Shown: in pieces, positions 673-39,014 of the stretch
How the letters are laid out: each line of letters begins with the position of its first letter
How positions within the stretch are numbered: position 1 is the first letter of the stretch
Source: Chloroflexota bacterium
GTDB taxonomy: Bacteria > Chloroflexota > Anaerolineae > UBA4142
Assembly: GCA_016208315.1 (NCBI GenBank)
Contig: JACQYF010000028.1
Coordinates: 1-39,014 of the forward strand
DNA: 39,014 nucleotides
Direction: 5' to 3'
Position numbers and translations under genes: made by a program
Notes under the pieces: model-generated
The model's input: only the letters and a program-made list of their open reading frames with translations
Told to the model about the DNA's origin: nothing
Database searches by the model: none

Positions 673-2462
673 ACGGTTGGACAGGCAAGATACTAGAGAT
701 TGACTTGAGTGCTGCGACAATCAAAACGTATGCGTTGGACATAGATATGGCGCGTCGCTTTCTGGGGGGACGCGGTTTGGGTGCGCGACTGTTGTGGGAC
801 GCGGTGGGTCCTGATGTTGAACCGCTCTCGCCAGACAACGTGCTTATCTTCGCGACGGGCCCCTTGACGGCCACGGGCTATCAAACGAGCAATCGCTTTT
901 CGGTCAGCACCAAAAGCCCGCTGACCGGCACGATACTCGACGCGAACAGCGGCGGCTTTTGGGGCATGCAATTCAAGAAAGCCGGCTACGATGCGCTGAT
1001 CGTGCGCGGGCGCGCGGCGCGACCGGTCTACATCGAGATCACGCCGGCCGGCGTGACGATCAAGGACGCGCAACATTTGTGGGGCGCGCGCGTCGGCGCG
1101 GTGACCGCGGCGCTGGGCCAAAATGACAATCGGCGCAACGTGCTGTGCATTGGACCGGCGGGCGAAAATTTGGGCCGCATGGCGGCGATCATGAACGACG
1201 GCCGGCGCAGTCTCGCGCGCGGCGGTCCGGGCGCGGTCATGGGCAGTAAGAACTTGAAGGCGATCGTCGTCGAAGGGAAAGAGCGACCGGGCATTGAGAA
1301 TCAAGAGCGTTTCAAGTTCCTGCTCTACGAGAGCCGCAAGATGCTGCGCACGAGTCCGCTCACCAGCCAGGCGCTGCCCGAGTTTGGAACGGCAGTCGTG
1401 ATGAATTTGGTCAACAACATCGGCGCGCTGCCGACGCGGAATTTTCAGCAGAGCCAGTTCGAGGGCGCGGAGGCGATCTCGGGCGAGGCGTTGACGGAGA
1501 GATACCTCGTAAAGAATGCCTCGTGCTGGGCGTGTCCCATTGGCTGCACGCGCATCAGCCGCACGGACCACGTGGAGGGCGAAGGGCCCGAGTACGAAAC
1601 GACGTGGGCCTTTGGCGCGCAGTGCGGGATTGACGATCTGGAAGCGATCGTCGAGGCGAATCACCTGTGCAACGAGGTGGGGCTGGACACGATCTCGACC
1701 GGCTCGACCATCGGCTGCGCGATGGAGTTGACCGAGCGCGGCCTCCTCGATTCCGATTTGCGCTTTGGTCGCGCCGATTTGCTCTCGCCGATCATTGAAG
1801 CGATTGCCTATCGCCGCGAGCTGGGCGACGATTTGGCGGAAGGCAGTTTGCGCTTGGCGAGCAAGTACCGCGCGCCGGAACTTTCGATGAGCGTCAAAGG
1901 ATTGGAAATGCCCGCGTATGATCCGCGCGGGATGCAAGGGCAAGGACTGCTCTACGCGACCTCGAATCGCGGCGCGTGCCACATGCGCGGGAATATGCTG
2001 GGTTTGGAGGTGCTGGGACTGCCCAAGTTGATTGACCGTTTCCAGGTGCAAGGCAAGTCGTCCTACGTGATCCTGCACCAAAACACGGCCGCGGCGATTG
2101 ATTCGCTCGTCGTCTGCAAGTTCACGCACATGGCCGTCGCCGAGGAATATTTCGCGCGCGTCCTGAGTGCGGTGAGCGGCATTGAGTTCTCGACGGGCGA
2201 TCTGGTGCGCGTCGGAGAACGGGTTTGGAACCTCGAACGATTGTACAACCTGCGCGAGGGGTTCACCTGCGCGGACGATTCGCTTCCTGCGCGCTTGCTT
2301 CGCGAACCATTGGCGGATGGCCCCAGCAAGGGGTGGGTCAACCAGCTCGAGCCGATGCTGGCAGAATACTATCGCGCGCGGGGTTGGGACGCGCAGGGCG
2401 TGCCGGGGCGGGCGAAGTTGAAAGAGATTCAATTGGAGTTGGATAGTTTGACAGTTGAATAG
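669..2462 (+). CDS. Tungsten-dependent aldehyde:ferredoxin oxidoreductase
   Basis: A 597-residue member of the AOR family, which oxidises aldehydes to carboxylic acids with ferredoxin using a tungsten bis-pterin and one [4Fe-4S] cluster. The N-terminal domain has the family segments RFLGGRGLGARLLWD and SPLTGTILDANSGGFWG. The cluster ligands are visible as C286-x2-C289-x3-C293 plus a distant C483. Length is normal for the family (about 600). The start overlaps the MoaD-like stop by four bases, and an aldolase follows after 58 bases. In this setting the likely physiological substrate is lactaldehyde released by the aldolase; that is inference from context. The stop codon lies inside the left arm of a hairpin (2454-2500). 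Confidence 0.93.
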   Translation: MNGWTGKILEIDLSAATIKTYALDIDMARRFLGGRGLGARLLWDAVGPDVEPLSPDNVLIFATGPLTATGYQTSNRFSVSTKSPLTGTILDANSGGFWGMQFKKAGYDALIVRGRAARPVYIEITPAGVTIKDAQHLWGARVGAVTAALGQNDNRRNVLCIGPAGENLGRMAAIMNDGRRSLARGGPGAVMGSKNLKAIVVEGKERPGIENQERFKFLLYESRKMLRTSPLTSQALPEFGTAVVMNLVNNIGALPTRNFQQSQFEGAEAISGEALTERYLVKNASCWACPIGCTRISRTDHVEGEGPEYETTWAFGAQCGIDDLEAIVEANHLCNEVGLDTISTGSTIGCAMELTERGLLDSDLRFGRADLLSPIIEAIAYRRELGDDLAEGSLRLASKYRAPELSMSVKGLEMPAYDPRGMQGQGLLYATSNRGACHMRGNMLGLEVLGLPKLIDRFQVQGKSSYVILHQNTAAAIDSLVVCKFTHMAVAEEYFARVLSAVSGIEFSTGDLVRVGERVWNLERLYNLREGFTCADDSLPARLLREPLADGPSKGWVNQLEPMLAEYYRARGWDAQGVPGRAKLKEIQLELDSLTVE

Positions 2463-2500
2463 TTGGGTAGTTGAGCCAGCCTACTATCCAACTATTCAAC
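2454..2500 (+). repeat. 18-bp inverted repeat across the AOR stop codon, built of tandem words
   Basis: Arms at 2454-2471 and 2483-2500 pair over 18 positions with one G-T wobble and an 11-base loop. The right side holds tandem copies of the word AACTATTC. The AOR stop codon (2460-2462) is within the left arm. There is no run of T after the hairpin, so it is not a standard intrinsic terminator, although it could still slow transcription or protect the mRNA 3' end. It belongs to the tandem-word class seen elsewhere in the window. Confidence 0.8.
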
Positions 2501-2520
2501 TATTCAACTAGGAAACTAAA

Positions 2521-3129
2521 ATGGACGAACGCATCATTCAGCAATTTCAAGAGATCGGGCGCGATTTGTTCGAGCAAGATTTGGTGAGTTCGCACGGCGG
2601 CAATATCAGCGTGCGCCTGGGGGATCGCGTCGTCATCAAGCGGCGCGGGGCGATGCTCGGCCGGCTCAAGCCGCACGACCTGATCGAGACCGGCCTGACC
2701 AAGAACGACAGCGGGGTCGCGCTGGCGTCCACCGAGTTACTCGTCCATCGCACGATCTATCTGAACACGCCCGCGCTCGCCGTCATCCACGCGCACCCGC
2801 GCACCGCCATCGCCTATTCGCTTTCGCGCGACGAGATCGTGCCGATTGACAACGAAGCGTCGTACTTACTGAAAAAGATCCCGGTTGTCTCCGAAGAAGT
2901 CCCGTCGGGGACAAAAGAGATGGCCGATACGCTGGCGAACGCGCTGGCAGCGTACAAGATCGTTGTACTGCGCGGGCACGGGAGTTTTGCCATCGGCCAG
3001 ACGTTGGACGAGGCGTTTCACTGGACGTCTACGTTGGAAGAAGCGTGCGAGATCGCGCTGAAAGCCAAGCTGATTGACGAGCCGTTTATTGAGTATCGCA
3101 AAATGAGCGACGGATATACTCAATGGTAA
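2521..3129 (+). CDS. Class II (zinc) aldolase, fuculose/rhamnulose-1-phosphate aldolase-like
   Basis: A 202-residue class II aldolase/adducin-family protein. It cleaves a ketose 1-phosphate into dihydroxyacetone phosphate and L-lactaldehyde. Residues matching the E. coli FucA active site are visible: catalytic E72 in ASTELLVH, zinc ligands H90 and H92 in HAHPRT and H153 in RGHGSF, and the N-terminal SHGGNIS phosphate-binding loop. The size is that of FucA and of short archaeal and bacterial homologues rather than the longer RhaD. It lies 58 bases after the AOR and two genes after the rhamnulokinase, which suggests rhamnulose 1-phosphate as substrate; fuculose 1-phosphate remains possible. It faces the HD-GYP gene convergently across a 73-base gap in which I see no clear terminator. 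Confidence 0.88.
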   Translation: MDERIIQQFQEIGRDLFEQDLVSSHGGNISVRLGDRVVIKRRGAMLGRLKPHDLIETGLTKNDSGVALASTELLVHRTIYLNTPALAVIHAHPRTAIAYSLSRDEIVPIDNEASYLLKKIPVVSEEVPSGTKEMADTLANALAAYKIVVLRGHGSFAIGQTLDEAFHWTSTLEEACEIALKAKLIDEPFIEYRKMSDGYTQW

Positions 3130-3202
3130 ATCAAGAGACAATTCCATGCGGGTCACGCGGTGGCAACTAGGCTTGGAAACTTGTAAACCGGTACTGCCAT
3201 GT

Positions 3203-6200
3203 CTACCGCGGCATGACTGCAAATGTCTTCAAAAAAGCTACGACGACCTGCGGATCGAAATGGGTACCGGAGAGTGATCGGATGTGCTCGCGGACTTGAA
3301 CCTCCGGCCACGCCGAACGGTACGGGCGGTCAGAGCGGAGTGCATCCCACACATCTACGACAGCGAAGATGCGCGCGGCGAGTGGGATTTGCTCGCCTTT
3401 CAGTTCGCGCGGGTAGCCCGTCCCATCCCATTTTTCGTGATGGCCGTAGGGGATGTCAATCGCCGAACGCAAGTAGCGGATGGGCGCGAGCATTTGATAC
3501 GCAAAGACGGGGTGTTGCTTCATCACCACCCATTCCTCGTCGGTCAGCGGACCTGGCTTGAGCAAGATATTATCGGGAATACCCATCTTGCCGATGTCGT
3601 GCAAGAGCGCACCCCACCGCACCTGGATCAATTCGTCCTCACTCAGCCCGAGGGCGCGCGCGAGTCTTACCGTCGTGTCCGTCACCCGCTGCGTGTGCCC
3701 TTCCGTCTCTTTGTCGCGTAAATCCAGCGCGCGGGACCACCCTTCAATCGTGGCATCGTAGGCCAAGGCCAGTTCGGCGTTCGAGCGTTGCATATTACTA
3801 AACAGCATCGCATTGTCAATCGCGATGGCGCACTGGCCCGCGAGCGTGTTCAGGAAATCAAGCCATTCACCATCGGGTTCGAGCGGGGCCCGGTGAAAGA
3901 CTTGGAGCACCCCTTCCACCTCGCCTTGCGCGATCAGGGGTACTCCGTAGTAGCACACGAAATCTTCCTTGCTCGACCCTCTGGCCGAACCCCAGTTTCC
4001 CGGCTCCTCGTTCAGATTGGGAATATGAATGATGCGGCGTTCTAAGGCCGCACGACCGGCGTAGCCCTCGCCCAGGCGCAGTTGCAGGTTCTCCTCGCTT
4101 GGGGAGTGAAAACCACACCCCGCGACATGGGTGAGCCGCTGCGAATTCGCATGGTACACCAGCACATTCGCCGCATCCACACCCAACTGCGCCAGGACGT
4201 GCGTGAGCAGCGTTTCCAGATTAGCGCGCAGATCGAAACTGGACGTGATCGCCCGGTCAATTTCACTCAGCGCCGCCAGATGCCGCAGGCGCCGCTCGGT
4301 CTGTTCGTGCAGTTGGGTGCGTTGAATCGCATTGCCCGCGATCTCGCTCAGGATGGTCAAGAGATGCACCTCACCCGCTGTCAATTCGCGGGGCAACGCG
4401 ACATTGACATCCAAAGTTCCAATCACCGTATCGCCCGCGCGAAGGGGGACGGCGGCCCCGCCGATCCCTGGCGGGATGCGCCGCCGCACCACGTCCGGCA
4501 ATCGCGGATCAAGACCGTATTCCTTGGACCGGTAGGGCTGGCTGGTCGCAAAGGCGTAACCGGAAATTCCTTCCCCGGGCTTCTCCGGCGGCGGGCAAGG
4601 CGCACTGGCTTCAGTGTTCCAACCGCGGGACACGGCCAACCGCAAGTGATCCTTAACAGGGTCAAACAACCAGATACTGCCGGCGGTCGCATGCACCACG
4701 GTGAGCGTGGCTTCCAGGACCACCGGGAGCATTTGCTCCAGCGTCTGCGCGGCGCGCATCGCCGTGGATAACTGATGGACCGCTTCGAGTTCCGCGAGGC
4801 GGCGTTTGATTTCCGCTTCGGCCTGCTTGCGCTCGGTAATGTCGCGCGAAATGCCACTGAGCCGAATGCCCTTGGTCGTGCGAATGGGGAACAAGCTCTG
4901 TTCCGCCACCCGGAGCGTGCCGTCGCGCCGCACAAATTCGGCTTCGACGACCCTGTTCACCATGGGCGATGTCCCTGTGCGCAGGGCTTGAGCAAACGTC
5001 GCCTTGAGCCGCGCGTACATGGCCGGGTTCTTGCGCGCGGGCGACACGAGTTGGTACTGTACATCCCACACCGGCTGGCCCACGACCGCTTCCCATCCCA
5101 GTCCCGTGATCTGCTCGGCGCCGCGATTCCATTCGACGATCGTTCCTTCTTCGTCCGTCATGAGAATCCAGTCGGACGTATGCTCGACAAAACTGCGGAA
5201 GCGGGCTTCACTTTCACGGAGCCGTTCCTCGGCGAGTTTGCGCTCGGTGATATCGCGTTGGATCGCCAGGAACCCGATGATCTCGCCGTGCTCGTCGAGA
5301 ATCGGATTGCTGGTGCTCTCGATGTTCAAGAGGCGACCATCTTTGGTCTTGTTGATCAGTTCGCCCGCGACGATCTGTTTCGCGAGGATCGTCTGCCAGA
5401 AAGCCGCGTATGCCTCGGGCGGCAGTACACCCGATTTGAGTAGGCGCGGCGTTTGGCCCAAGGTCTCTGGCTTGGCATAGCCGTAGATTTTCTCGAAGGC
5501 GGGGTTCACGTAGACGATCGAGCCATCGGGTTCCGTGAGGAAGATCGCCTCGCCGGACCGCTCGATGCCCAAACCAAATTTCAGGCGATCCAATTCGGTT
5601 CGCTTGCGCTGCGTCACGTCGCGCGAAATTCCCATAACGATTTCCGGTTCCCCGGCGCCATCCCGCAGCGGGACGAGCTTGGTATCCAGCCAGACGTCTC
5701 GGCCGTTGATCGTGACCTTGGCTTCCGATTGGATGGGCTGCTTCGTTTCGAGCACCTCGCGAATGTGCTGGACAAACCCCGAGGCGGCCGCGGGTGGGAA
5801 GAGTTCGTTCAGCGTCTTGCCGACGACCTCTTCGGGCGGACAACCCACCAACTGCGCGGCGGAACCATTGCCGTAAAGCACGCAGCCGTACCCATTCACA
5901 ATGAAAATCGCATCCGGCGCGTGCTCGGCCAGCGTGCGATACCGCGATTCGCTCTCGCAGAGCGCATCCTCGGCGCGCTGTCGCTCGATCAGTTCCAATT
6001 GCAGCCGCTCGTTCGCGAGTCGCAGTTCGGCGGTGCGCTGGGCCAAACCGTCCAGCGTTTGCCGCAGTTGTTGCGTCATCGTGTTAAAGGTCATCGCCAG
6101 TGTGCCGATCTCGTCCCGGGCTTGCACCGGCGCCTGCGTCGTCAAGTCGCCGGCCCCCACCTTCTCAGCCACCGCGGTCAACCGAAGGATCGGAGCGGTC

Positions 6201-29305: not shown

Positions 29306-30170
29306 TTTTGTACACCGCCGCCGCCAGGTAGCCCACCGTATATTGCCCGCGCGTGCGGACGCCGGTCACGTCGCCCGAGTTGGTGCGGTGGAGCACCCGC
29401 GCGCGGTTCGCGCCGAGTTGCTGCGCGGCCAGGAGCGCGATAACGATCGGCGCGTCACCGCACGCGCGGCACTCGCCGTCTTGCGACATGGCTTGCGCCA
29501 AGCGGGGAATGTCGAACGCCGCGACCATTTCGGCGGTCTGGGCGTCGAACTGGTTTACCGCTTCGTAATCGGGAATGTGGGACAGGTCGGAACTGGCGAC
29601 GAACAGAACCCGGCGCCCGCGGCCCAAGTCCGCGAGCGTGGCGGACAGTTCTTGGCAGGCTTCGAGCACCCCCGCGCCCAACAAATAAAACGGTAGCGTC
29701 ACCATGATCGGCACCAGCTTGAAATCGCCGAGGGTGCGCTGCAAGTAAGGCAGTTGAATTTCGAGCGAGTGTTCGCGGTCCCGTTCGACTCGGGCGATCG
29801 CGATCCGGTCCGCCAGCCGGTCAATGAAATCGTGGGCCAGTTCAATTTCGCCGAGCGGCGTCGCGTAATATTGCTTGGCGCTGATGGCAAAAGGGCCCCA
29901 GTTTTCCGAGTGGCTGGGGCCCAACAAAACTACGGTCTCGAACGTTCGGCCCGTCAGTTGCCGATACGCATGGCCGGAGGTTGGCCCGGAATAACGATAG
30001 CCCGCATGTGGGGCGATGAGTGCGATCAGTTCATCGTCGGTCGCATAGAACTCGGCTTGCGCGAGGAACTCGTCAACTGCTTTGGCCAGTTCACGTTTTG
30101 AGCCGGGATACCAAGTACCGGCAATGGCGGAGGTCCGAACGGTTCGCGGATCATGCGTCTCATTGCTCAT
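29283..30170 (-). CDS. Memo-family protein (AmmeMemoRadiSam protein B)
   Basis: 295 residues. Memo/AmmB proteins are metal-binding relatives of class III extradiol dioxygenases. The conserved histidine segments are visible: LIALIAPHAGYRYSGPTSG near the N-terminus, LLGPSHSEN, SLEIQLPYLQ, ASSDLSHIPDYEA, and a CGDAPIVIALLAA segment. Members are often found with a radical-SAM protein (AmmA) and an AMMECR1 protein (the system named from the three); neither is visible in this window, so here it stands apart. The biochemical role is unknown. The C-terminal VSSKQ and the stop come from a tandem-word repeat. Confidence 0.88.
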   Translation of the reverse strand: MSNETHDPRTVRTSAIAGTWYPGSKRELAKAVDEFLAQAEFYATDDELIALIAPHAGYRYSGPTSGHAYRQLTGRTFETVVLLGPSHSENWGPFAISAKQYYATPLGEIELAHDFIDRLADRIAIARVERDREHSLEIQLPYLQRTLGDFKLVPIMVTLPFYLLGAGVLEACQELSATLADLGRGRRVLFVASSDLSHIPDYEAVNQFDAQTAEMVAAFDIPRLAQAMSQDGECRACGDAPIVIALLAAQQLGANRARVLHRTNSGDVTGVRTRGQYTVGYLAAAVYKTTVSSKQ

Positions 30171-30183
30171 CGCGACGCCTATC

Positions 30184-30205
30184 GGGCGACCACAAGGGTC
30201 GCGCC
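30184..30205 (-). repeat. Hairpin directly after the infA stop (GGGCGACC type)
   Basis: GGGCGACC pairs with GGTCGCGCC with one bulged base and a five-base loop (left arm 30184-30191, right arm 30197-30205). The infA stop codon is next to the stem. No T-run follows, so it is a weak terminator candidate; the sequence type is a common intergenic repeat in some bacteria. Confidence 0.5.
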
Positions 30206-30460
30206 CTACTTTTTGAATCGGTACGTGATGCGCCCGCGCGTCAAATCGTAGGGCGAAAGTTCCACCGTCACGCGGTCGCCAAGCAGAATGCGAATATAGT
30301 ACATCCGCATCTTGCCCGAGATGTGCGCGAGCACGCTGTGCCCGCTGTCGAGTTGCACGCGGAACATGGCGTTGGGGAGCGCTTCGGTGACCGTCCCCTC
30401 CGCCTCGATCACATCCTTTTTTTGCTTTTTCTCTTCGCGCTCTTGTGTTGGTCTTGGCAT
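30206..30460 (-). CDS. infA: Translation initiation factor IF-1
   Basis: 84 residues. IF-1 binds the A site of the 30S subunit during initiation. The family core [37 protein letters not shown] and [20 protein letters not shown] with the final YRFK is complete. The 14-residue N-terminal extension ([14 protein letters not shown]) is charged and makes it longer than the usual ~72 residues. The start is supported by GGAGAG a few bases upstream. It lies ten bases after ftsK on the same strand and is probably co-transcribed. Confidence 0.95.
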
Positions 30461-30470
30461 TGACTCTCCT

Positions 30471-32690
30471 TCATTTTTTCTTTTTCGAGCGTCCTGGCTC
30501 GGGCGGTTCGGGCGGTATCACGGCCCGGGCCTTGCCGCCTCCCTCATCCGCGCTCACGACGCCCAACTCTTCCAATTGATCCATCAACCGCGCCGCGCGC
30601 GGATACCCAATCCCCAATTTGCGTTGCAGGAACGAAATGGACGCGGTGTCCGCTTGGCGCACCAGCTGGGTCGCTTTCTCGACCAACTGGTCCCCGCCGC
30701 CGTTCTTGCCCGATTCTTCCAACGCTTTCCACGGCGGCTCGTGGATAATGTCGCGCATTTCCATGATCGCCTTTTCGCGCCAGAAATGGACAAGCCGCGC
30801 CAACTCTTCATCCGCGACAAAGCACCCTTGCAGGCGCAGCAATTTCGACGAATCGGGCGCCATGTACAACATATCGCCGCGGCCGAGCAATTTCTCCGCG
30901 CCGGGCGTGTCGAGCACGACGCGCGAGTCCACGCCGCTCGTCACCGCAAACGCGATGCGCGCCGGAAAGTTCGCCTTGATCAGGCCGGTCACCACATCCA
31001 CCGATGGCCGCTGGGTCGCGATGACCAAGTGAATGCCGGTGGCGCGTGCCATCTGCGCGAGCCGCGTTAGCAGTTTTTCGGTTTCGTCCGGCGCGGCGAG
31101 CATCAGGTCGGCCAGCTCGTCAATCAGGACGACGATGTACGGCATGCTGTTCTCGGTGGCTTGCGCGTTGTACGCCTCGACGTTCCGCACGCCCGTTTTG
31201 GCGAACAGCGTAAAGCGGCTGTCCATTTCTTCTACGACCCAGCGCAGCGCGGAAACTACCTCGTCCATGTTGACGACCACGGGGCCTAAAAGATGCGGGA
31301 TGTTGTTGAACGTCGTCAGCTCGACGCGTTTGGGGTCCACCAGGATGAGGCGCAAGTCGTCGGGCGAATTGTTGAACAGCAGGCACGCGATAATCGTGTT
31401 GATGCACACCGACTTGCCGGAGCCGGTCGCGCCCGCGATCAGCAGGTGGGGCATGCTCCCCATGTCCGCCGACATCGAGGCGCCCGAAACATCGCGCCCG
31501 AGCGCCACGCGCAGCGCCCCCTTTTTCTTTTTGAATTGCTCGCTCTCGAGAACGCCGCGCAGCGAGACGACCGAGACCGATTGGTTCGGCACCTCGATCC
31601 CGACGATCGGGCGGCCCGGCACGGGCGTTTCAATGCGAATCGGCGCGGCGGCGAGCGCGAGTTCCAAATCGTGTTGCAGCGCGGCGATCCGGCTCACCGA
31701 GACCTTGCGGCGGCGCATTTGCCCGTCGGTTCCGCGCCGTTCGAGAAAACCCGGCTCCAGCCCGAATTGGGTGACCGTCGGTCCCGCGTTGATTTCGATA
31801 ATTTTCGCCGGGATGCCGAAATTCGCCAGCGCCTCGACGATCAGTTCGCTTTTGCGTTTGGCGTCCAATTCGCCGTATTTCGCTTCGTTCGATTCGGCGA
31901 GCAAATCGAGCGCGGGCAATGCGCCGGCGCGCCGCCGGGCGCTCTTGCGCGCGCTGAGAATCGGATGGGTCAGGCGCGCCGTTTCCGCCACCGCAGGGGC
32001 CGGTTTGCCAAAGACCGGGCGCGTCGGGGGCGCAGCCGGTAACGGCCAGTCTTCCGGCTCGGCAATCATTGGCCGGGGTCTTTCCACTCTGGGCCGCGGC
32101 GTCGCGGCGACTGCCGGCGCCGGCTTGGTCTGCGCTGCGCGCGCCTTGAGCGTTTCACTCCAAGCGCGCAAATGGCCGGCGCTCAAGCCGATAATCGCAG
32201 GCAAAGTAAACAACACCAGCGCGAAAAGGATCAAGCCCGCGCCCACCTCGCCGATCACGGCCACGAGCGCGTTACTAATCGTATAGCCGATGAATCCGCC
32301 GCCCTCGCCTTTATCGGCAAGCGCCGCGGGGTTGTCCGCCGGCGTGAACAAGTGAACGAGCGCGAGCGCCGCGCCGGAGAAAATCTCGGCGGCAAAAACT
32401 CGGCCCCAGGCCACGCCGGTCGCCCGATGATCGCCGCGGCGCAGCAGGAATCCGCTGCCGATAAAAGCCAAAAGCGGCAAGCCAAACGCGCCCCAACCAA
32501 ACATGACGCGCAAGAGTTGCGCGGCATAGTTGCTGATCGCGCTTGGGGCAATCCGCAGCAAGCTCAACAGAACCAAACCCCCCAACGCGAACAGCGCGAG
32601 TCCCGCGATCTCGCGCTGCCGGGCCGGGTCTATTTTCAATTGAAATCGGTTTGCAACCGAACGGTCCTCTTTGACTCGTTTGCGCGTCAT
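30471..32690 (-). CDS. ftsK: DNA translocase FtsK/SpoIIIE
   Basis: 739 residues. FtsK pumps DNA across the division septum and helps resolve chromosome dimers. Four membrane helices occupy ~25-170 ([19 protein letters not shown] segments), followed by a Pro/Arg-rich linker ~190-260, the alpha and beta motor domains with Walker [10 protein letters not shown] near residue 405 and the Walker B-type segment [12 protein letters not shown], and a C-terminal winged-helix gamma domain ([25 protein letters not shown]). The gamma domain would read KOPS-like orientation sequences. It precedes infA with a ten-base gap. A 19-base gap separates it from the S1 gene upstream, so all three could be one transcript. 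Confidence 0.95.
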
Positions 32691-32709
32691 GTCATCTTTG
32701 GGGTGGGGG

Positions 32710-33816
32710 TCAAACCCCCGATTGCGCCAAGCTCTCCCAATAGCCCGCGTCGGGCGGTGGCGGCGGCGGCGGGGTATCGTAGAAAAGTTTTGCCTTGGCT
32801 TGAAACTTATAATCGCCGTGGGCCGGTATCGCCGGCCGATGCGGCCGCGTGGCGGCGCGGTCGCGCAAGCTTAGACCAATGCGCTGGCGCGGCGAATCAA
32901 TATTGATCACACGCGCGTGTACGATTTGGCCTTCGTGAACGACATCGCGCGGATGCAGGAAACTACCTTCGGCTAATTCCGAAATGTGGATTAGGCCTTC
33001 GACCCCCTCGGCCACGCGTACGAACGCGCCGAATTCGACAACGTTCGTAATCGGACCGTCTATCCAATCGCCCGGATGTAATTTTTCGGCGATCTGCGCC
33101 CAGGGATTAGGGATCAGGCGCTTGATGCTGCACGCGATCCGTTTTTGTTCGCGGTCCACGTCCATAATATAGATCTGGACTTGCTGCCCGGGCGCGAGCA
33201 CATCGCGCGGGTGGCCCACATGCTGCCACGACAACTCGGACACGTGGATCAATCCTTCGACGCCGCCCAAGTCTACGAACGCGCCAAAGTCGGTAACGTT
33301 GCGAATCACGCCCTGGCGCGTTTGCTGTGGTTCGATGGAGGCGAGGACTTGATCGGCGCGCGGGACTGCGGGGTTGGCAATTCGTTCGGACAGGATCAGG
33401 CGATTGCGCTGTCGGTCGAATTCGATCACCTTAAGGTGCAGCGTAGTATTCACGTACCGCGCTAACTCTTGCATCCGTTCGTCTTCCTGCACCTTGCGCG
33501 GGAAACTTGAGAGCTGCGACGCGGGGACAAAGCCATGGATCTCGCCGAGGTCAACTAGCACCCCGCCGCGATTGTAACCGACGACGCGAAGCTGGAGCGT
33601 ATCGCCCTGGGCATAACTTTTTTCGGCCAGCGCCCATCCGCTGCCGGTCAAAGCAGGTCGGGAAGGGGGCGTAACGGCCGCGCTCCGATTCTCATCGCCA
33701 TTCGTCGGCGCAGGGGATGCCGGGCGCGGCTCGGGCGGGGGCGCGGGTTTCTCTCCCAGCAATGCCCGCCAATACCCATCATCAGGTACTTCTTCCCACG
33801 GTTTAACTTCAGCCAT
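32710..33816 (-). CDS. rpsA: S1-domain RNA-binding protein (30S ribosomal protein S1-like, three S1 repeats)
   Basis: 368 residues from the ATG at 33816, with GGAGG eight bases upstream; the longer frame to 33987 runs through the promoter and a terminator hairpin. Three S1 OB-fold repeats occur at ~69-143, 165-233 and 249-319; the second and third carry the classic VTDFGAFVDLGGVEGLIHVSEL and VVEFGAFVRVAEGVEGLIHI patterns. Bacterial S1 commonly has four to six repeats, so this is a short form; a general S1-type RNA-binding protein is the alternative. The N-terminal 60 residues are Pro-rich. The ends both carry a D-x-GYW motif (GYW at 14-16 and 358-360), an unusual symmetry. It heads a minus-strand group with ftsK and infA. 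Confidence 0.85.
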   Translation of the reverse strand: MAEVKPWEEVPDDGYWRALLGEKPAPPPEPRPASPAPTNGDENRSAAVTPPSRPALTGSGWALAEKSYAQGDTLQLRVVGYNRGGVLVDLGEIHGFVPASQLSSFPRKVQEDERMQELARYVNTTLHLKVIEFDRQRNRLILSERIANPAVPRADQVLASIEPQQTRQGVIRNVTDFGAFVDLGGVEGLIHVSELSWQHVGHPRDVLAPGQQVQIYIMDVDREQKRIACSIKRLIPNPWAQIAEKLHPGDWIDGPITNVVEFGAFVRVAEGVEGLIHISELAEGSFLHPRDVVHEGQIVHARVINIDSPRQRIGLSLRDRAATRPHRPAIPAHGDYKFQAKAKLFYDTPPPPPPPDAGYWESLAQSGV

Positions 33817-33857
33817 CGGGCTATTCCTCCACAGCGAACCGGCGAACCATCCAGCCG

Positions 33858-33966
33858 AAATAAAAAATCGGTTCTCCCACCCCAATACCACGGCGGGGTG
33901 GCACAACCGATCTCCTGACTGCAACCGATTCCTCACGCTAAATCCGGCAAAGCTATCCCACCCCGC
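33858..33966 (-). promoter_or_regulatory. Candidate transcription attenuator in the S1-gene leader
   Basis: On the minus strand a strong hairpin (arms 33910-33895 and 33883-33868; 14 of 16 positions pair, 11-base loop) is followed by TTTTTTATTT, a good intrinsic terminator, 42 bases before the S1 start. Upstream in the same leader GCGGGGTGG (33966-33958) is an exact nine-base complement of CCACCCCGC in the terminator's first arm (33901-33893). A copy of AATCGGTT (33930-33923) can also pair with the second arm. These would form mutually exclusive structures, as in attenuators and riboswitches. The ligand or signal is unknown; no known riboswitch core is recognised. Confidence 0.6.
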
Positions 33967-33985
33967 GACAGGCGAATCCATCGTC

Positions 33986-34015
33986 ATTATAAGCGCAATG
34001 ACGCGGATTTGTCAA
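33986..34015 (-). promoter_or_regulatory. Consensus sigma-70 promoter for the S1-ftsK-infA group
   Basis: TTGACA (34015-34010) and TATAAT (33991-33986), both perfect consensus, are separated by 18 bases. Transcription would begin near 33979, leaving a leader of about 160 bases with the terminator-like hairpin inside. Confidence 0.85.
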
Positions 34016-34019
34016 GGCA

Positions 34020-34058
34020 CGGGCCGTAGGACAAGTTGCCAACTTGTCCTACGGCCCG
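34020..34058 (+). repeat. Perfect 19-bp palindrome with GTAGGACAA core
   Basis: Arms 34020-34038 and 34040-34058 are exact reverse complements around one base, with ATTTTTAT next on the plus side. The inner 13 bases of each arm correspond to the palindrome at 28375-28407 with two compensated differences. It lies between the cupredoxin fragment stop and the S1 promoter -35 box. There is no plus-strand gene before it, so it is not needed as a plus-strand terminator. Confidence 0.85.
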
Positions 34059-34062
34059 ATTT

Positions 34063-34154
34063 TTATGGCACGACGGTGACCGTCCCGGTCATCGGCGCGC
34101 TATGGATGAGGCAAACGTATGGGAACTTTCCGGGCTGGCTGAAAGTAAAGACGT
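34063..34154 (-). pseudogene. Cupredoxin (plastocyanin-like) C-terminal fragment
   Basis: About 30 codons in an open frame read NVFTFSQPGKFPYVCLIHSA, then PMTGTVTVVP and TAA. This is the end of a type 1 copper protein: the copper ligands Cys, His and Met appear as CLIHSAPM (C-x2-H-x3-M), followed by the closing beta strand GTVTVV. The rest of the domain, including the first His ligand, is absent; upstream the sequence is the end of the cyclase gene in another frame. It is therefore a remnant, too short to fold alone. Confidence 0.6.
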
Positions 34155-34787
34155 TCAGCCCTCGATCAAGATCGCCCGACAAGGACCTCCATCACCCTTT
34201 GCGATTTTGAGCGGCAAGCAAGCCAGTGTGTAAGCCCCGGGCGCGACATCTTTCAGATTCAGCCCTTCGACGATAATAACGCCGGCGCGCAGCAGAATGT
34301 GATGGGTATCGGGCTGGACGGCGCCAAATGGCTCGATGCTCAAATAGTCAATTCCAACCAAGAGAATTCCGCGGTCGATCAGCCACTTGGCCGCGTCCGC
34401 CGAGACGCCGACGTAATCTTGGTCGAACCCAGTGCGAGTCCACAAGCGTGAATTGCGAGTCTTGAGCAGCGCTCGTTCGACGCCTCGTGGCAGTTTTGCC
34501 GCTTCCAAATCCTGTGGCGTGATGACGCCGGAGACTCGGGTCAAGTCTGCTACGATCGCCGGGCCATACAGGACATCCAGGTCAAGTTGGTCCACGGTCT
34601 TGCCGCCGGGGACAAAGTGGACCGGCGGGTCGAGATGTGTGCCGGTATGATCGCCCATACAGAGTTGCGACACGTTGGCGCTATCGCCGTTGGCGATCTG
34701 GAGCACCGGCGTGATACTGACCGTGGGGTCTCCGGGATACGTGGGCATGTCGGGAGATATGGGGATCGAAATGTCGTGGATGCGCAT
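34155..34787 (-). CDS. Cyclase/kynurenine formamidase-family metal hydrolase
   Basis: 210 residues from the ATG at 34787 (six extra in-frame codons with a TTG precede it). The KynB/putative cyclase family hydrolyses amide or lactone bonds. The start MRIHDISIPISPDMPTYPGDP and the metal-binding signature HTGTHLDPPVHF are clear, followed by GVSADAAKWLIDRGI and VGIDYLSIEP. Family members include kynurenine formamidase, isatin hydrolase and polyketide-type cyclases, and the substrate cannot be fixed from the sequence. It follows the DUF255 gene after about 20 bases and is probably transcribed with it. Confidence 0.85.
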   Translation of the reverse strand: MRIHDISIPISPDMPTYPGDPTVSITPVLQIANGDSANVSQLCMGDHTGTHLDPPVHFVPGGKTVDQLDLDVLYGPAIVADLTRVSGVITPQDLEAAKLPRGVERALLKTRNSRLWTRTGFDQDYVGVSADAAKWLIDRGILLVGIDYLSIEPFGAVQPDTHHILLRAGVIIVEGLNLKDVAPGAYTLACLPLKIAKGDGGPCRAILIEG

Positions 34788-34808
34788 GGCAATTGCTTTC
34801 TGCAAACG

Positions 34809-36893
34809 TCAGCCATTCAGCTGTGCCGCAAGGGCATCCGGCTCGGTCACGGGCAGCTGGCACGTGAAATTCTGACACACGTACGCGGTCGCACGGTTTT
34901 TGAGCGACACGCGTGTGCGCAACAAAGGAATCGCCGACGCGTCGCCTTCGGTCGCGTAAGCAACCACTTGATTGGGGCGATACTCGCGATAGACCACATT
35001 CAGCAATTCGCGCGTGCCTTGCGGGTCGCCCACAATCGCGATTTCCTTCGGCTTGCCAAGCGCAAAATCGAGCGCACACAGCCACTGCGCGAATCCCAAC
35101 GGCGCAACGGCCAATGCTTTCTGAACCAATTGCAGCGCGCGTTCTGCCGCTTTAGTATAACGGCTCTCGCCCGTATACGCGCCGAGCTTGAGCAACACGG
35201 TTGCCGCCATCGCGTTGCCCGATGGAACGGCATTGTCTTGTACATCTTTGGGCCGCGTCACGAGTTGTTCTGCCTCATGGCTCGTGTCATAGAATCCGCC
35301 GCGCGGATCGGAGAAAAGTTCCAGCATCGTATCCGCCAGTTCGCGTGCGGCGATGAACCAGCGCTCGTCAAAGGTGGTTTGATACAACGCCAGCAAACCC
35401 TCGATCAAATTGGCATAGTCTTCCAAAAATCCGCCGATGCGCACCTCCCCGTCTTTCCACGAACGGTGCAGGCGACCGCGGCTATCGCGGAGTTCGGCGA
35501 GAATAAAATCGGCATTTCGTGCTGCGATCGCGCGATAATCGTCGCGACTGAGCGCCCGCGCCGCTTCGGCGAACGCGGCGAGCATCAACCCGTTCCAACT
35601 CGTCAACACTTTTTCATCCCGTGCCGGCTGGACGCGCCGTTCGCGGGCATGGAATAATTTGCGCCGCGCCGCGTTCAAGCGTCGCTCGACTTTTGACTCG
35701 TCGAGATGATACATCGCCGCGATCACATCGGGATCACGCGCGACATGCAAGATGTTTTTCCCCTCAAAGTTTCCTTGCGCGGTCACGCCGTATGCGTCCA
35801 TGAACATCTGCGCGTCGTTCACATCGGACGGCGATTGGCGCGCGACAATCACCCGTCCCGACGGCGAAGCGCCTAACGCGGCGCGGATTTCGTCCGGCGT
35901 CCAAACGAAAAATTTTCCTTCGTGCCCTTCCGAATCGGCATCGGCGCTGGAGAAGAAACCGCCGCGCGCGTGGGTCATCTCGCGAGCGACGTAATCGAGC
36001 GTCTCTGCCGCGATGCGTCGAAAGGAATCATTCCGCGTCATCTGCCAGGCATGCAGGTACGCTCGCGCGAGCTGCGCATTATCATAGGCCATCCGCTCGA
36101 AATGGGGCGTACCCCAAACCGCGTCCGTCGCATAGCGGTGAAAGCCGCCGCCGAGTTGGTCATAGATGCCGCCGCGCGCCATCTTGTCGAGCGTTTTCGT
36201 CAACATTTTCAGGATGATTTCTTCGCGCGTGCGCGCATAGACGCGCATCAGGAATTCGAGCGCCATGGGCTGTGGGAATTTCGGCGCGCCGCCCCAGCCG
36301 CCTTCGCCCCAATCGAACGCGCTTTGCATTTGCGCCACGGCTTGGTCGAGCGTGCCTGGGCCGAGCGGCGCTTCGTCGCCGCCGAGATCAATTGGCTCGA
36401 TGGCGGCGACGACGCGCGCGCTAGCGCCGATCAATTCGGCGCGCCGGCGCGGAGCGTTCCATGCCGTCGCAATCGCGTTCAGCACGTCTTTGAACGCGGG
36501 CATATTGTAGCGTCGCGTGTTCGGAAAGTACGTGCCGCCGTAAAACGGCTTGCCGTCCGGCGTGAGAAACATGCTCATCGGCCAGCCGCCTTGCCCGGTC
36601 ATCGCGACGACCGCGTTCATGTAGATCGAGTCCAGGTCCGGTCGTTCTTCGCGGTCCACTTTGATATTTACAAAATGCTCATTCATGATCTGCGCGGTCT
36701 CGGCATCCTCAAACGACTCGTGCTCCATGACGGTACACCAATGACAGGAGGCGTATCCGATGCTTAAGAAAATCGGCTTGTCTTCCGCTTTCGCTTTTTG
36801 CAACGCTTCCGCATCCCAAGGATACCAAGCGACCGGATTGTGGGCGTGCTTGAGCAAGTACGGACTGGTTTCTTGAATGAGACGATTCGGCAT
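34809..36893 (-). CDS. DUF255 thioredoxin-fold/glycoside-toroid protein (YyaL/SSP411 family)
   Basis: 694 residues from the ATG at 36893, supported by AAAGGAG about 11 bases upstream; the longer frame upstream is noncoding. It begins [20 protein letters not shown] and has a thioredoxin-like domain with C50-H-W-C53 in [18 protein letters not shown]. The rest is an (alpha/alpha) barrel-like region typical of the YyaL/spermatogenesis-associated protein 20 family ([31 protein letters not shown]). The role in bacteria is not established; a redox or sugar-related activity has been proposed for the fold. It shares its upstream region with the divergent two-component genes. Confidence 0.9.
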
Positions 36894-37013
36894 GCGATCA
36901 ATCTCCTTTCTAATCTCACCCGTCTCCCGTACGCGTCCCACGCAGAATACGTTGATCCTTGCCACCCTGTTGGGAACGACGCGAGCATCGGCGGTGGTCG
37001 GCGTATCGGCGCC

Positions 37014-37043
37014 ATTGTAGCACAGACGCAGCGCGCGGCGCAA
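37014..37043 (-). promoter_or_regulatory. Possible promoter for the DUF255 gene
   Basis: TTGCGC (37043-37038) and TACAAT (37019-37014) with 18 bases between, about 120 bases before the start codon. The -10 element is good, the -35 weak. The 252-base divergent gap (36894-37145) shows no other gene. Confidence 0.4.
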
Positions 37044-37105
37044 GTCGTGCGTCCCCTGGACCAACCGCTTGCCAGAGAACACGAGTTTCCATTCCAACGT
37101 CCCAT

Positions 37106-37133
37106 TTGAATTTCGTCGGCCCTGTGGTATATT
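37106..37133 (+). promoter_or_regulatory. Promoter very close to the histidine kinase start
   Basis: TTGAAT (37106-37111) and TATATT (37128-37133), 16 bases apart. Transcription would start near 37140, only about six bases before the ATG at 37146, and no Shine-Dalgarno sequence precedes that ATG. The mRNA may be leaderless. Confidence 0.5.
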
Positions 37134-37145
37134 GTAGCCGGACAT

Positions 37146-38363
37146 ATGCCTACGCCTCTTTCCGTCCTCATCCTCGAAGACCGCGCATCCGACGCCGAGT
37201 TGATCGTGGCGGAGTTGCGCCACGCCGGGTTTGACCCGCAGTACGAACGCGTGTACCGGCGCGCAGACTATATCGCGCGTCTAACTCCGGCGCTCGACGT
37301 GATCCTGGCCGATTATTCCATACCCGGGTTCAATGCCAAGCGCGCCCTTCGGACGCTTCAAGAGTGCGGCTTGGATATTCCCTTCATCGTCGTCTCGGGC
37401 ACGATTGAGGAAGAGAGCGCGGTGTCCTTGATCCGGCAAGGGGCCACCGACTATTTGCTCAAAGACCGCCTGGCGCGCTTGGGTCAAGCCATTACGCGCG
37501 CTTTGGAAGAGAAAAAGTTGCGTCACGAAAGCGCCCGCGCCGAACAAGCCCTGCGCGAAAACGAACGGCACACGCATGCGGAATTGGAACAGCGCGCCGC
37601 CGAGCTGGGCGCACTCTACGACGAAAATCTCCAATTGTTCGAGCAGGTCCGCGCCAGCCGCGAGCGTCTCCAATTTCTTTCGCGTCGTCTGCTGCAAGCG
37701 CAGGAGAGCGAACGCCGGAATATCGCGCGCGAATTGCACGACGAAATCGGTCAGGCGCTCACCGGCGTGCAGCTCAATTTGCAGGCCATCGAACCGGCCC
37801 TCGCGCGCAAATCCGCGCGGGCGACCTTGCAAGACGCGATGGCGACGATCGAACGCACCTTGCAGCAGGTCCGCGATCTCTCGCTTAATCTGCGGCCCTC
37901 GATCCTGGACGATTTCGGGCTGGTCCCCGCGCTCAAATGGCTCGTCGCGCAGCAGATGCGGCGCGCCAATCTGACCATCGAGTTCACGCCCGACCCATTG
38001 GAACCGCGCGCGTCGATTGAAATCGAAACGGCGTGCTTTCGAGTCGTGCAGGAAGCATTGACCAACACGGCGCGGCACGCGCACGCCACCCATGTATCGG
38101 TGCGGCTGCAATGCGCCGGACCCGCGCTCAAGTTGGTTGTTCAAGACGACGGAACCGGCTTCGACACCGCGCTGGCCTTGCGACGCGCCTCGGGCGGCGC
38201 AAGCTTGGGGTTGCTCGGGTTGCAAGAACGCGTGAGTCTCGCGGGGGGCCAGATCGAGATCAAATCCGCTCCGGGCCAGGGGACACGCATCGAAGCCCGT
38301 TTCCCCCTGGATTCTTCGGTGGCCTTTATCGAGCGACGTATTCGCAGGAGACAGATGTCATGA
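37146..38363 (+). CDS. Hybrid receiver-histidine kinase (REC-HisKA_3-HATPase)
   Basis: 405 residues, cytoplasmic. The N-terminal receiver domain (1-~120) has the acidic pair E11/D12, phosphoacceptor D56 in ILADYSIPG and K106. A coiled coil (~125-180) leads to a HisKA_3 dimerisation domain with H198 in [17 protein letters not shown], then a HATPase domain with [11 protein letters not shown] (N box), DDGTGFD (G1) and [10 protein letters not shown] (G2). This is the NarX/DegS-type kinase class, with a receiver in place of a membrane sensor, so it probably relays a signal from another kinase. It overlaps the next gene, a NarL-type regulator, by four bases, which makes that regulator its likely target. 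Confidence 0.93.
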
Positions 38364-39014
38364 CTCGTATTCGCATTCTACTCGCCGACGATCACGCGCT
38401 GGTCCGCGCCGGGATTCGCGCGCTGCTCCAGCAAATTCCGGGCATCGAAGTGGTGGCCGAGGCGGACGATGGCAACGCGGCGGTCGAATGGGTTGAAAAG
38501 CTACAGCCCGATATCGCGTTCATGGACATTGCGATGCCGGGGCTGACCGGACTGCAAGCCACCGCGCGGATCACAAAATCTTTTCCGAACGTCCGGGTGA
38601 TTATGCTTTCTATGCACGCGGAGCAGGAATACGTGCTCCAAGCCCTGCGCGCGGGCGCGGTCGGGTATTTGCTCAAAGGCGCGCGCACGTCCGAATTGGA
38701 GCTAGCCATCACCGCGGCGATGCGCGGCGAGGCGTACCTCAGCCCCGCCGCGTCGAAACAAGTCGTCGGGGACATGCTCGCGCGCCGGTCCGACGAGCCG
38801 AGTTCGGGCGCGCATCTGACCCCGCGCCAGCGCCAAGTGCTTCAGTTGATCGCCGAGGGCTGCTCGCGCAAACAGATCGCCCAAAAGATCGGCGTGAGCG
38901 CCAAGACCGTGGACACGTATCGCGCGCAGATCATGGAGCAGTTGAACATCCACGATACCGCCGGTCTCGTGCGCTATGCGATGAAAGTAGGTTTGGTTGA
39001 GACGGAAGAACGCG
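38360..39014 (+). CDS. NarL/FixJ-family response regulator (cut by window end)
   Basis: 218 codons are visible and the frame is still open at the window edge, so only the last few residues are missing. The receiver domain has D10/D11, phosphoacceptor D56 in AFMDIAMPGLTG and K106 in YLLKG. After a linker, a LuxR-type helix-turn-helix reads LTPRQRQVLQLIAEGCSRKQ followed by IAQKIGVSAKTVDTYRAQIM. It is a DNA-binding regulator phosphorylated by the kinase encoded by the overlapping gene upstream. Target genes cannot be read here. Confidence 0.93.
   Translation, partial: MTRIRILLADDHALVRAGIRALLQQIPGIEVVAEADDGNAAVEWVEKLQPDIAFMDIAMPGLTGLQATARITKSFPNVRVIMLSMHAEQEYVLQALRAGAVGYLLKGARTSELELAITAAMRGEAYLSPAASKQVVGDMLARRSDEPSSGAHLTPRQRQVLQLIAEGCSRKQIAQKIGVSAKTVDTYRAQIMEQLNIHDTAGLVRYAMKVGLVETEER

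Follow-up and report, generated by a model that had tools for sequence, protein, structure and literature searches.

In gammaproteobacteria, ribosomal protein bS1 is outlined as an autogenous repressor of rpsA that acts at translation, and in the E. coli S10 operon uL4 is outlined as causing attenuation at a leader terminator (PMC10931766). Similarly, rplJL of B. subtilis is outlined as being attenuated by L10(L12)4 (PMC4538822). Here, we describe the leader of an S1-domain gene in a stretch of Anaerolineae DNA of 39,014 nucleotides (the window). As far as the outlines in these sources go, the leader resembles those of rplJL and S10 in that an intrinsic terminator precedes the gene in the unit of an RNA-binding protein; it differs from them in that no conserved protein-binding fold or antiterminator was found, the regulator is only putative, and the protein is of the S1-domain type, with ftsK as a neighbour. 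As in gammaproteobacterial rpsA, a gene for an S1-domain protein is preceded by a leader that is conserved and specific to this gene. However, control of rpsA is exerted, in the same outline, on translation, through a structured initiation region that lacks a canonical Shine-Dalgarno (SD) sequence (PMC10931766), whereas the visible device in the Anaerolineae S1 leader is a transcription terminator and the SD sequence is canonical. The terminator has the same stem base and T-run as the ordinary intrinsic terminators of the window's family (ATCGG...CCGATTTTT), but it sits between a promoter and a gene, and the gene is the same one at each of the 13 orthologous loci. In a literature search that covered titles and the starts of abstracts, mostly of papers available without subscription, no description of this S1 leader was found, nor, among the titles listed, a paper on the S1-ftsK neighbour pair. 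The words Chloroflexi and rpsA are absent from the main texts of an r-leader survey (PMC7247131) and of PMC11109978. The leader is probably an undescribed, protein-controlled attenuator of the S1-ftsK unit.

The features of the locus are listed in Table 1. The perfect-consensus promoter and the leader of ~160 bases with a strong hairpin and a T-run, both reported in the initial annotation, were confirmed in the sequence base by base. Among five promoter-like sites detected within positions 30000-39014 (2.3 expected), the one ahead of the S1 gene is the sole 12/12 site. The consensus is likewise 12/12 at 12 of the 13 orthologous promoters of the family S1 loci (9/12 at the remaining one, L013), and even the sequence of the promoter spacer is conserved across the family leaders. 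When up to three mismatches are allowed, the promoter-plus-spacer pattern turns up in 8 of the 14 family genomes, with a single occurrence in each, and this occurrence invariably precedes the S1 gene. Between the leader start and the ATG, no second promoter scoring above 8.5 (on the same 12.5 scale) was found at any of the 13 family loci; therefore, S1 transcripts must cross the terminator. Just upstream of the promoter lies a palindrome, CGGGCCGTAGGACAAGTTGCCAACTTGTCCTACGGCCCG (window 34020-34058), with similar matches at 18 other places in the genome (31 hits when both strands and the window itself are counted). It looks like a dispersed palindromic repeat, and a look-alike is present in one orthologous leader (L025) between the terminator and the start codon.

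Table 1. Features of the S1-ftsK locus, in window positions
Feature	Position	Strand	Details
Promoter	33986..34015	-	TTGACA 34015-34010, 18-nt spacer, TATAAT 33991-33986; 12/12 consensus; spacer conserved in family
Leader transcript	33817..33979	-	Start inferred ~7 nt past the -10 box; length ~160 nt
GCGGGGTGG in 5' G-rich block	33958..33966	-	Exact complement of CCACCCCGC at 33901-33893 (first arm of terminator)
AATCGGTT (GTCGGTT-like)	33923..33930	-	Copy of the start of the first arm, ~20 nt before it
Intrinsic terminator	33858..33911	-	ATCGGTTGTGCCACCCC - loop - GGGGTGGGAGAACCGAT, then TTTTTTATTT; hairpin 33911-33867, T-run 33867-33858; -28.5 kcal/mol
SD sequence (GGAGG) of S1 gene	33826..33830	-	Sequence; ATG 33816-33814
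S1-domain gene, 368 aa, three S1 domains	32710..33816	-	Pfam PF00575, E 2.1e-49, three stretches
ftsK	30471..32690	-	Pfam FtsK_SpoIIIE, alpha and gamma; 19 nt past the S1 stop codon
IF-1-like gene	30206..30460	-	Pfam eIF-1a, E 1.1e-28

The S1-domain protein scored below the cut-offs of the NCBIfam equivalogs for 30S ribosomal protein S1 (best, 270 versus 368 bits). Against the model of the CvfD/Ygs/GSP13 subfamily (NF040579; cut-off 117) it scored 120.6, but this model spans 113 residues against the 368 of the protein, and two of its orthologues (L011, 115.9; L016, 113.1) fall below the cut-off. The closest named relatives, from Chloroflexota or Anaerolineae, are 48% identical or less (80 loci kept), and no leader terminator was found in the nine of these loci that were checked. 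No stop codon interrupts the S1 frame in the leader (window ORF 32710-33987), which reaches back to an ATG that overlaps the -10 box; automated annotation could therefore yield an S1 protein of 425 aa, the first codons of which would not be transcribed from the likely start. Downstream, ftsK, which the initial annotation did not mention, is likely the second gene of the transcription unit, and the IF-1-like gene possibly belongs to it as well, as judged from spacing only.

The family of the window comprises 14 genomes in the collection compared, 13 of which contain an orthologous S1 gene. The orthologues of the other 12 are 60-69% identical to the window protein; in the 14th genome (G003, 70% complete), no S1 match was obtained at 1e-40. 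The promoter-leader-terminator layout precedes the S1 gene at all 13 orthologues, in one copy per genome. In these 13 leaders, the T-run of the terminator begins 101-173 nt and the start codon lies 145-223 nt after the -10 box, and in L025 the terminator is located ~120 nt before the ATG.

The folding energy of the whole leader is mildly unusual (-65.2 kcal/mol versus -58.0 +/- 3.9 in shuffles, z -1.85; 7 of 200 shuffles as good), and a simple terminator scan of positions 30000-39014 found no excess of terminator-like sites (12 versus 11.7 expected) and missed the leader hairpin because its loop limit is eight bases. The terminator is lifted above chance by its conservation, namely by the species specificity of its arms and its paired cells. 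When the homologous leaders were aligned and tested for covariation, the hairpin proved to be conserved at 13 of 13 family orthologues, and its arms fit the partner of their own species better than those of other species (permutation P = 5e-5, the minimum attainable with 20,000 permutations). Over 12 pairs, 87.2% of the cells are paired versus 82.7 +/- 1.3 in shuffles (0 of 500), and the proportion falls to 33-54% when the alignment is slid. The covariation score was reached by 8 of 500 shuffles, and double-sided changes occur in 4 of the 12 pairs, as many as 52 of 500 shuffles reach. In an RNAalifold analysis of the whole family leader, only the terminator stem pairs (-0.38 kcal/mol). As judged from these sequence comparisons, the terminator is under selection. 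The ATCGG...CCGATTTTT pattern occurs 3-21 times per family genome, S1 leaders included, versus 0-4 times for the reversed control, and several of the occurrences are perfect hairpins by eye; thus, the stem base and shared core are partly a habit of the lineage.

With a covariance model of the leader (R1), a single strong match of 50.9-94.1 bits was obtained per genome in 13 of the 14 genomes of the family, located in every case at the S1 gene. These matches are obtained by construction, and the informative part is the absence of further copies: no other match in the family exceeded 25.1 bits, the 25.1-bit match being the reverse strand of a leader, among the 150 of 1,266-4,565 first-look candidates that were scored per genome. 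The best match in six sister-family genomes reached 22.3 bits, and a search of 199 genomes of the class with stricter filters gave, besides six family genomes, one weak match (G102, 27.5 bits). A larger regulon was considered and set aside. Of seven inspected loci with weak R1 matches, four contain what look like ordinary terminator hairpins and one falls within a coding frame, while two (L061 and L068), on short contigs, were not placed. The single site per genome fits autogenous control. In the sister family, S1 and ftsK are likewise paired, and a promoter and a short leader precede them, but the terminator is absent; the promoter pattern is present at five of its six S1 loci, and at the remaining locus only 55 nt are available ahead of the projected start.

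The leaders were also compared with known RNA families. The initial annotation had recognised no known riboswitch core, in agreement with Rfam 15, in which neither the window nor the leaders of the 13 family loci gave a match at the gathering score. Elsewhere in these 13 loci, five matches were obtained, four tRNAs and a c-di-GMP-II-GAG aptamer. The latter riboswitch match (L011, 3355-3463; 42.9 bits, gathering 40) lies near the S1 locus of G008. There were no matches in 18 other loci, and the only additions under a lax threshold were three models of microRNAs and one of a snoRNA, whose scores lay far below gathering.

Both elements that had been noted upstream of the terminator are present, namely nine bases exactly complementary to part of its first arm and a further AATCGGTT; competing structures of this kind had been taken as a usual sign of regulated termination. 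In the window, the competing helix exceeds chance (interaction -15.3 kcal/mol versus -5.4 +/- 3.2, p = 0.015). The truncated window leader folds into the antiterminator. Across the 13 family leaders, pairing between the upstream part and the first arm did not differ from shuffles in the last test (P = 0.11), the measure of which was fixed before the run but after other variants had been seen, nor did it depend on species in swaps of partners (P = 0.60; 0.55 in an earlier version). One variant was positive: when pairing probability was computed for an 18-nt arm, counted from its start, Fisher P values of 0.0008 and 0.0013 were obtained in two runs. The corresponding values were 0.26 for a 12-nt arm, 0.07 for a 22-nt arm, 0.45 when only the last 45 nt of the leader were used, 0.09 in a species swap, and 0.99 in 11 leaders of other families; the last test gave 0.78 in other families, with only L097 being low (p = 0.016). 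When duplex energies were compared with dinucleotide shuffles, only the window (p = 0.01) and L020 (p = 0.03) stood out for the first arm and only L017 (p = 0.035) for the second arm, for which a species-swap permutation gave P = 0.69. Pairing of the AATCGGTT copy with the second arm is suggestive only (P = 0.07). We took the pairing as not conserved, despite the one positive variant, and rejected a general antiterminator model: alternative pairing is a property of the window and not one conserved in the family. What stands of the original claim is an attenuator-like layout at 13 of 13 loci; its competing pairing does not extend to the family. Conserved antiterminator pairing is not required of protein-dependent attenuators.

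Short sequence blocks are retained in the family leaders where the pairing is not. The 5' G-rich block, GTCGCGCGGRTGG, is found within three mismatches in 7 of the 13 leaders, and AGTCGGTTG, the consensus of the AATCGGTT copy, within two mismatches also in 7 of 13, each versus 0.67 expected, with both consensuses drawn from the same 13 leaders that served as the test set. In 11 of 13 leaders, no more than 50-71 nt precede the terminator, and this part is poorly conserved, without a shared fold. A conserved leader peptide with an SD sequence before the terminator was searched for as well, and no ORF is shared among the 13 leaders.

To our knowledge, regulation in this class has been little studied. 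We collected 88 S1 loci of the class, 30 from a first search and 18 plus 40 from a second; places at which the alignment began deep in the protein were mostly left out. In 66 of these, ftsK lies downstream of the S1 gene on the same strand, within flanks limited to 1-1.5 kb; therefore, a conditional terminator would gate both genes. Terminators better than -15 kcal/mol were found in the leader zone of 23 of the 88 loci, comprising 11 of the 13 family loci and 12 of the 75 others; the two family loci missed by the automatic rule (L010 and L015) have terminators visible in the alignment. A promoter pattern precedes the terminator at 8 of the 12 non-family loci (families f8, f17, f25, f35, and f44). 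The other four, including L097 of family f52, lack such a pattern and could represent the ends of upstream genes. In f17, one of three loci contains a leader terminator. In three of the four f25 genomes, the stem GTCTCGGC...GGGACTTT has a single occurrence, which lies in the S1 leader, and its reversed control gave one match, in G126. Two S1 leaders of f35 (L100 and L101) also have a promoter, but their terminator stem is another one, AAGCCAGTTC...GAACTGGCTTG, with TTTTG after it. The motif TCGG stands at the stem base of 16 of 24 leader-zone terminators versus 3 of 74 hairpins elsewhere in the same 88 loci, a control that consists mostly of chance hairpins, and several non-family stems begin with CTCGG. 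Homology of the leader terminators was not concluded from this motif, given the nature of the control and the abundance of ATCGG...CCGATTTTT in the family. Attenuation of S1-ftsK may thus be recurrent in the class, although most loci have no terminator.

Two features point to an attenuator: the terminator separates the gene from its promoter without a second promoter following it, and it is conserved at the same gene in all family orthologues. The absence of the terminator from the sister family and from the nine named relatives checked, the lack of a conserved antiterminator helix, and the frequency of the stem base in the family genomes speak against it. Our preferred reading, to which we assign a probability of roughly 0.4, is that the leader attenuates the S1-ftsK unit and that plentiful S1 protein would bind the nascent leader, favour termination, and thereby limit itself and FtsK. 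RNA polymerase starting at the consensus promoter would meet the terminator before the S1 gene, and the terminator is predicted from its sequence to cut short some of the S1 and ftsK transcripts. Termination would be conditional, and S1 and ftsK would be carried on one transcript. The only site of the leader is a gene that encodes a putative RNA-binding regulator, with three S1 domains; by analogy with the autogenous systems, the S1 protein is the leading candidate for the regulator, as the initial annotation had suggested as a possibility. As the leader is found at one gene only and the unit can be reached only through the terminator, it would be most economical if the terminator were read by the unit's own product. 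The sensor would then be the S1 protein, reading the 5' G-rich block and the GTCGGTT copy and not a conserved antiterminator helix, and an excess of the protein would increase termination, a negative feedback whose sign we presume.

The main rival to this autogenous reading is a constitutive partial terminator, a brake of fixed fraction on a very strong promoter by which nothing is sensed. We regard it as rather unlikely: strong conservation is indeed confined to the terminator and the promoter, and a conserved antiterminator, an Rfam match and a leader peptide are all lacking, but a fixed brake would need neither the short motifs kept before the terminator (7 of 13 versus 0.67 expected) nor a promoter spacer that is conserved and gene-specific. 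Short conserved blocks without a shared fold would suit any protein, and the genome of the window encodes a second S1 protein (437-aa ORF). Regulation by a factor other than the encoded S1 protein, such as NusA, NusG, a Csr- or TRAP-like protein or an S1 paralogue, is nevertheless improbable, since a general factor would be expected to act at several genes and the leader occurs at one. Still smaller is the chance that a small-molecule riboswitch, the alternative offered in the initial annotation, or another RNA-structure switch operates through the 9-base antiterminator. The folding of the truncated window leader, the interaction that beats shuffles, and the single positive variant of the family test speak for such a switch, whereas the short, poorly conserved pre-terminator part without a shared fold, the outcome of the last test and its species swap, and the lack of an Rfam match speak against it.

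Two further explanations concern the transcript itself. Promoter and terminator bracket a short transcript, so that the unit might produce a small RNA of ~120 nt while transcription of S1 originates elsewhere, perhaps as read-through of the gene upstream. That gene ends at 34155 on the same strand; no minus-strand terminator was seen in the interval from there to the promoter, and the palindrome at 34020-34058 is terminator-like on the plus strand only. However, there is no other promoter before the start codon, read-through would meet the same terminator, and neither of the two upstream genes recurs at any of the other 87 loci; we regard a small RNA as very improbable. Finally, the open frame of the window from 33987 and an in-frame ATG at the likely start site (33981-33979) would be compatible with ribosome-mediated attenuation through a translated leader or with a 5'-extended S1 protein. 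An S1-frame start runs through in only 3 of the 13 leaders (L008, L016, and L020), SD-like sites precede TTG codons only, again in 3 of 13 (L008, L016, and L018), and no peptide is shared among the 13 leaders; we consider this explanation extremely improbable.

Control of S1 by attenuation of its own transcription would be a solution different from the translation-level autoregulation outlined for rpsA (PMC10931766). If the terminator of the S1 leader is conditional, the leader represents a cis-regulatory element without a match in Rfam 15, and a chromosome-segregation gene would be placed on the same switch as an RNA-binding protein. A broader proposal, which we hold to be doubtful at present, is that of an Anaerolineae attenuator class in which a protein with three S1 domains controls its own leader through short motifs and sets the dose of FtsK. 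If true, chromosome segregation would be linked directly, through gene regulation, to an RNA-binding protein.
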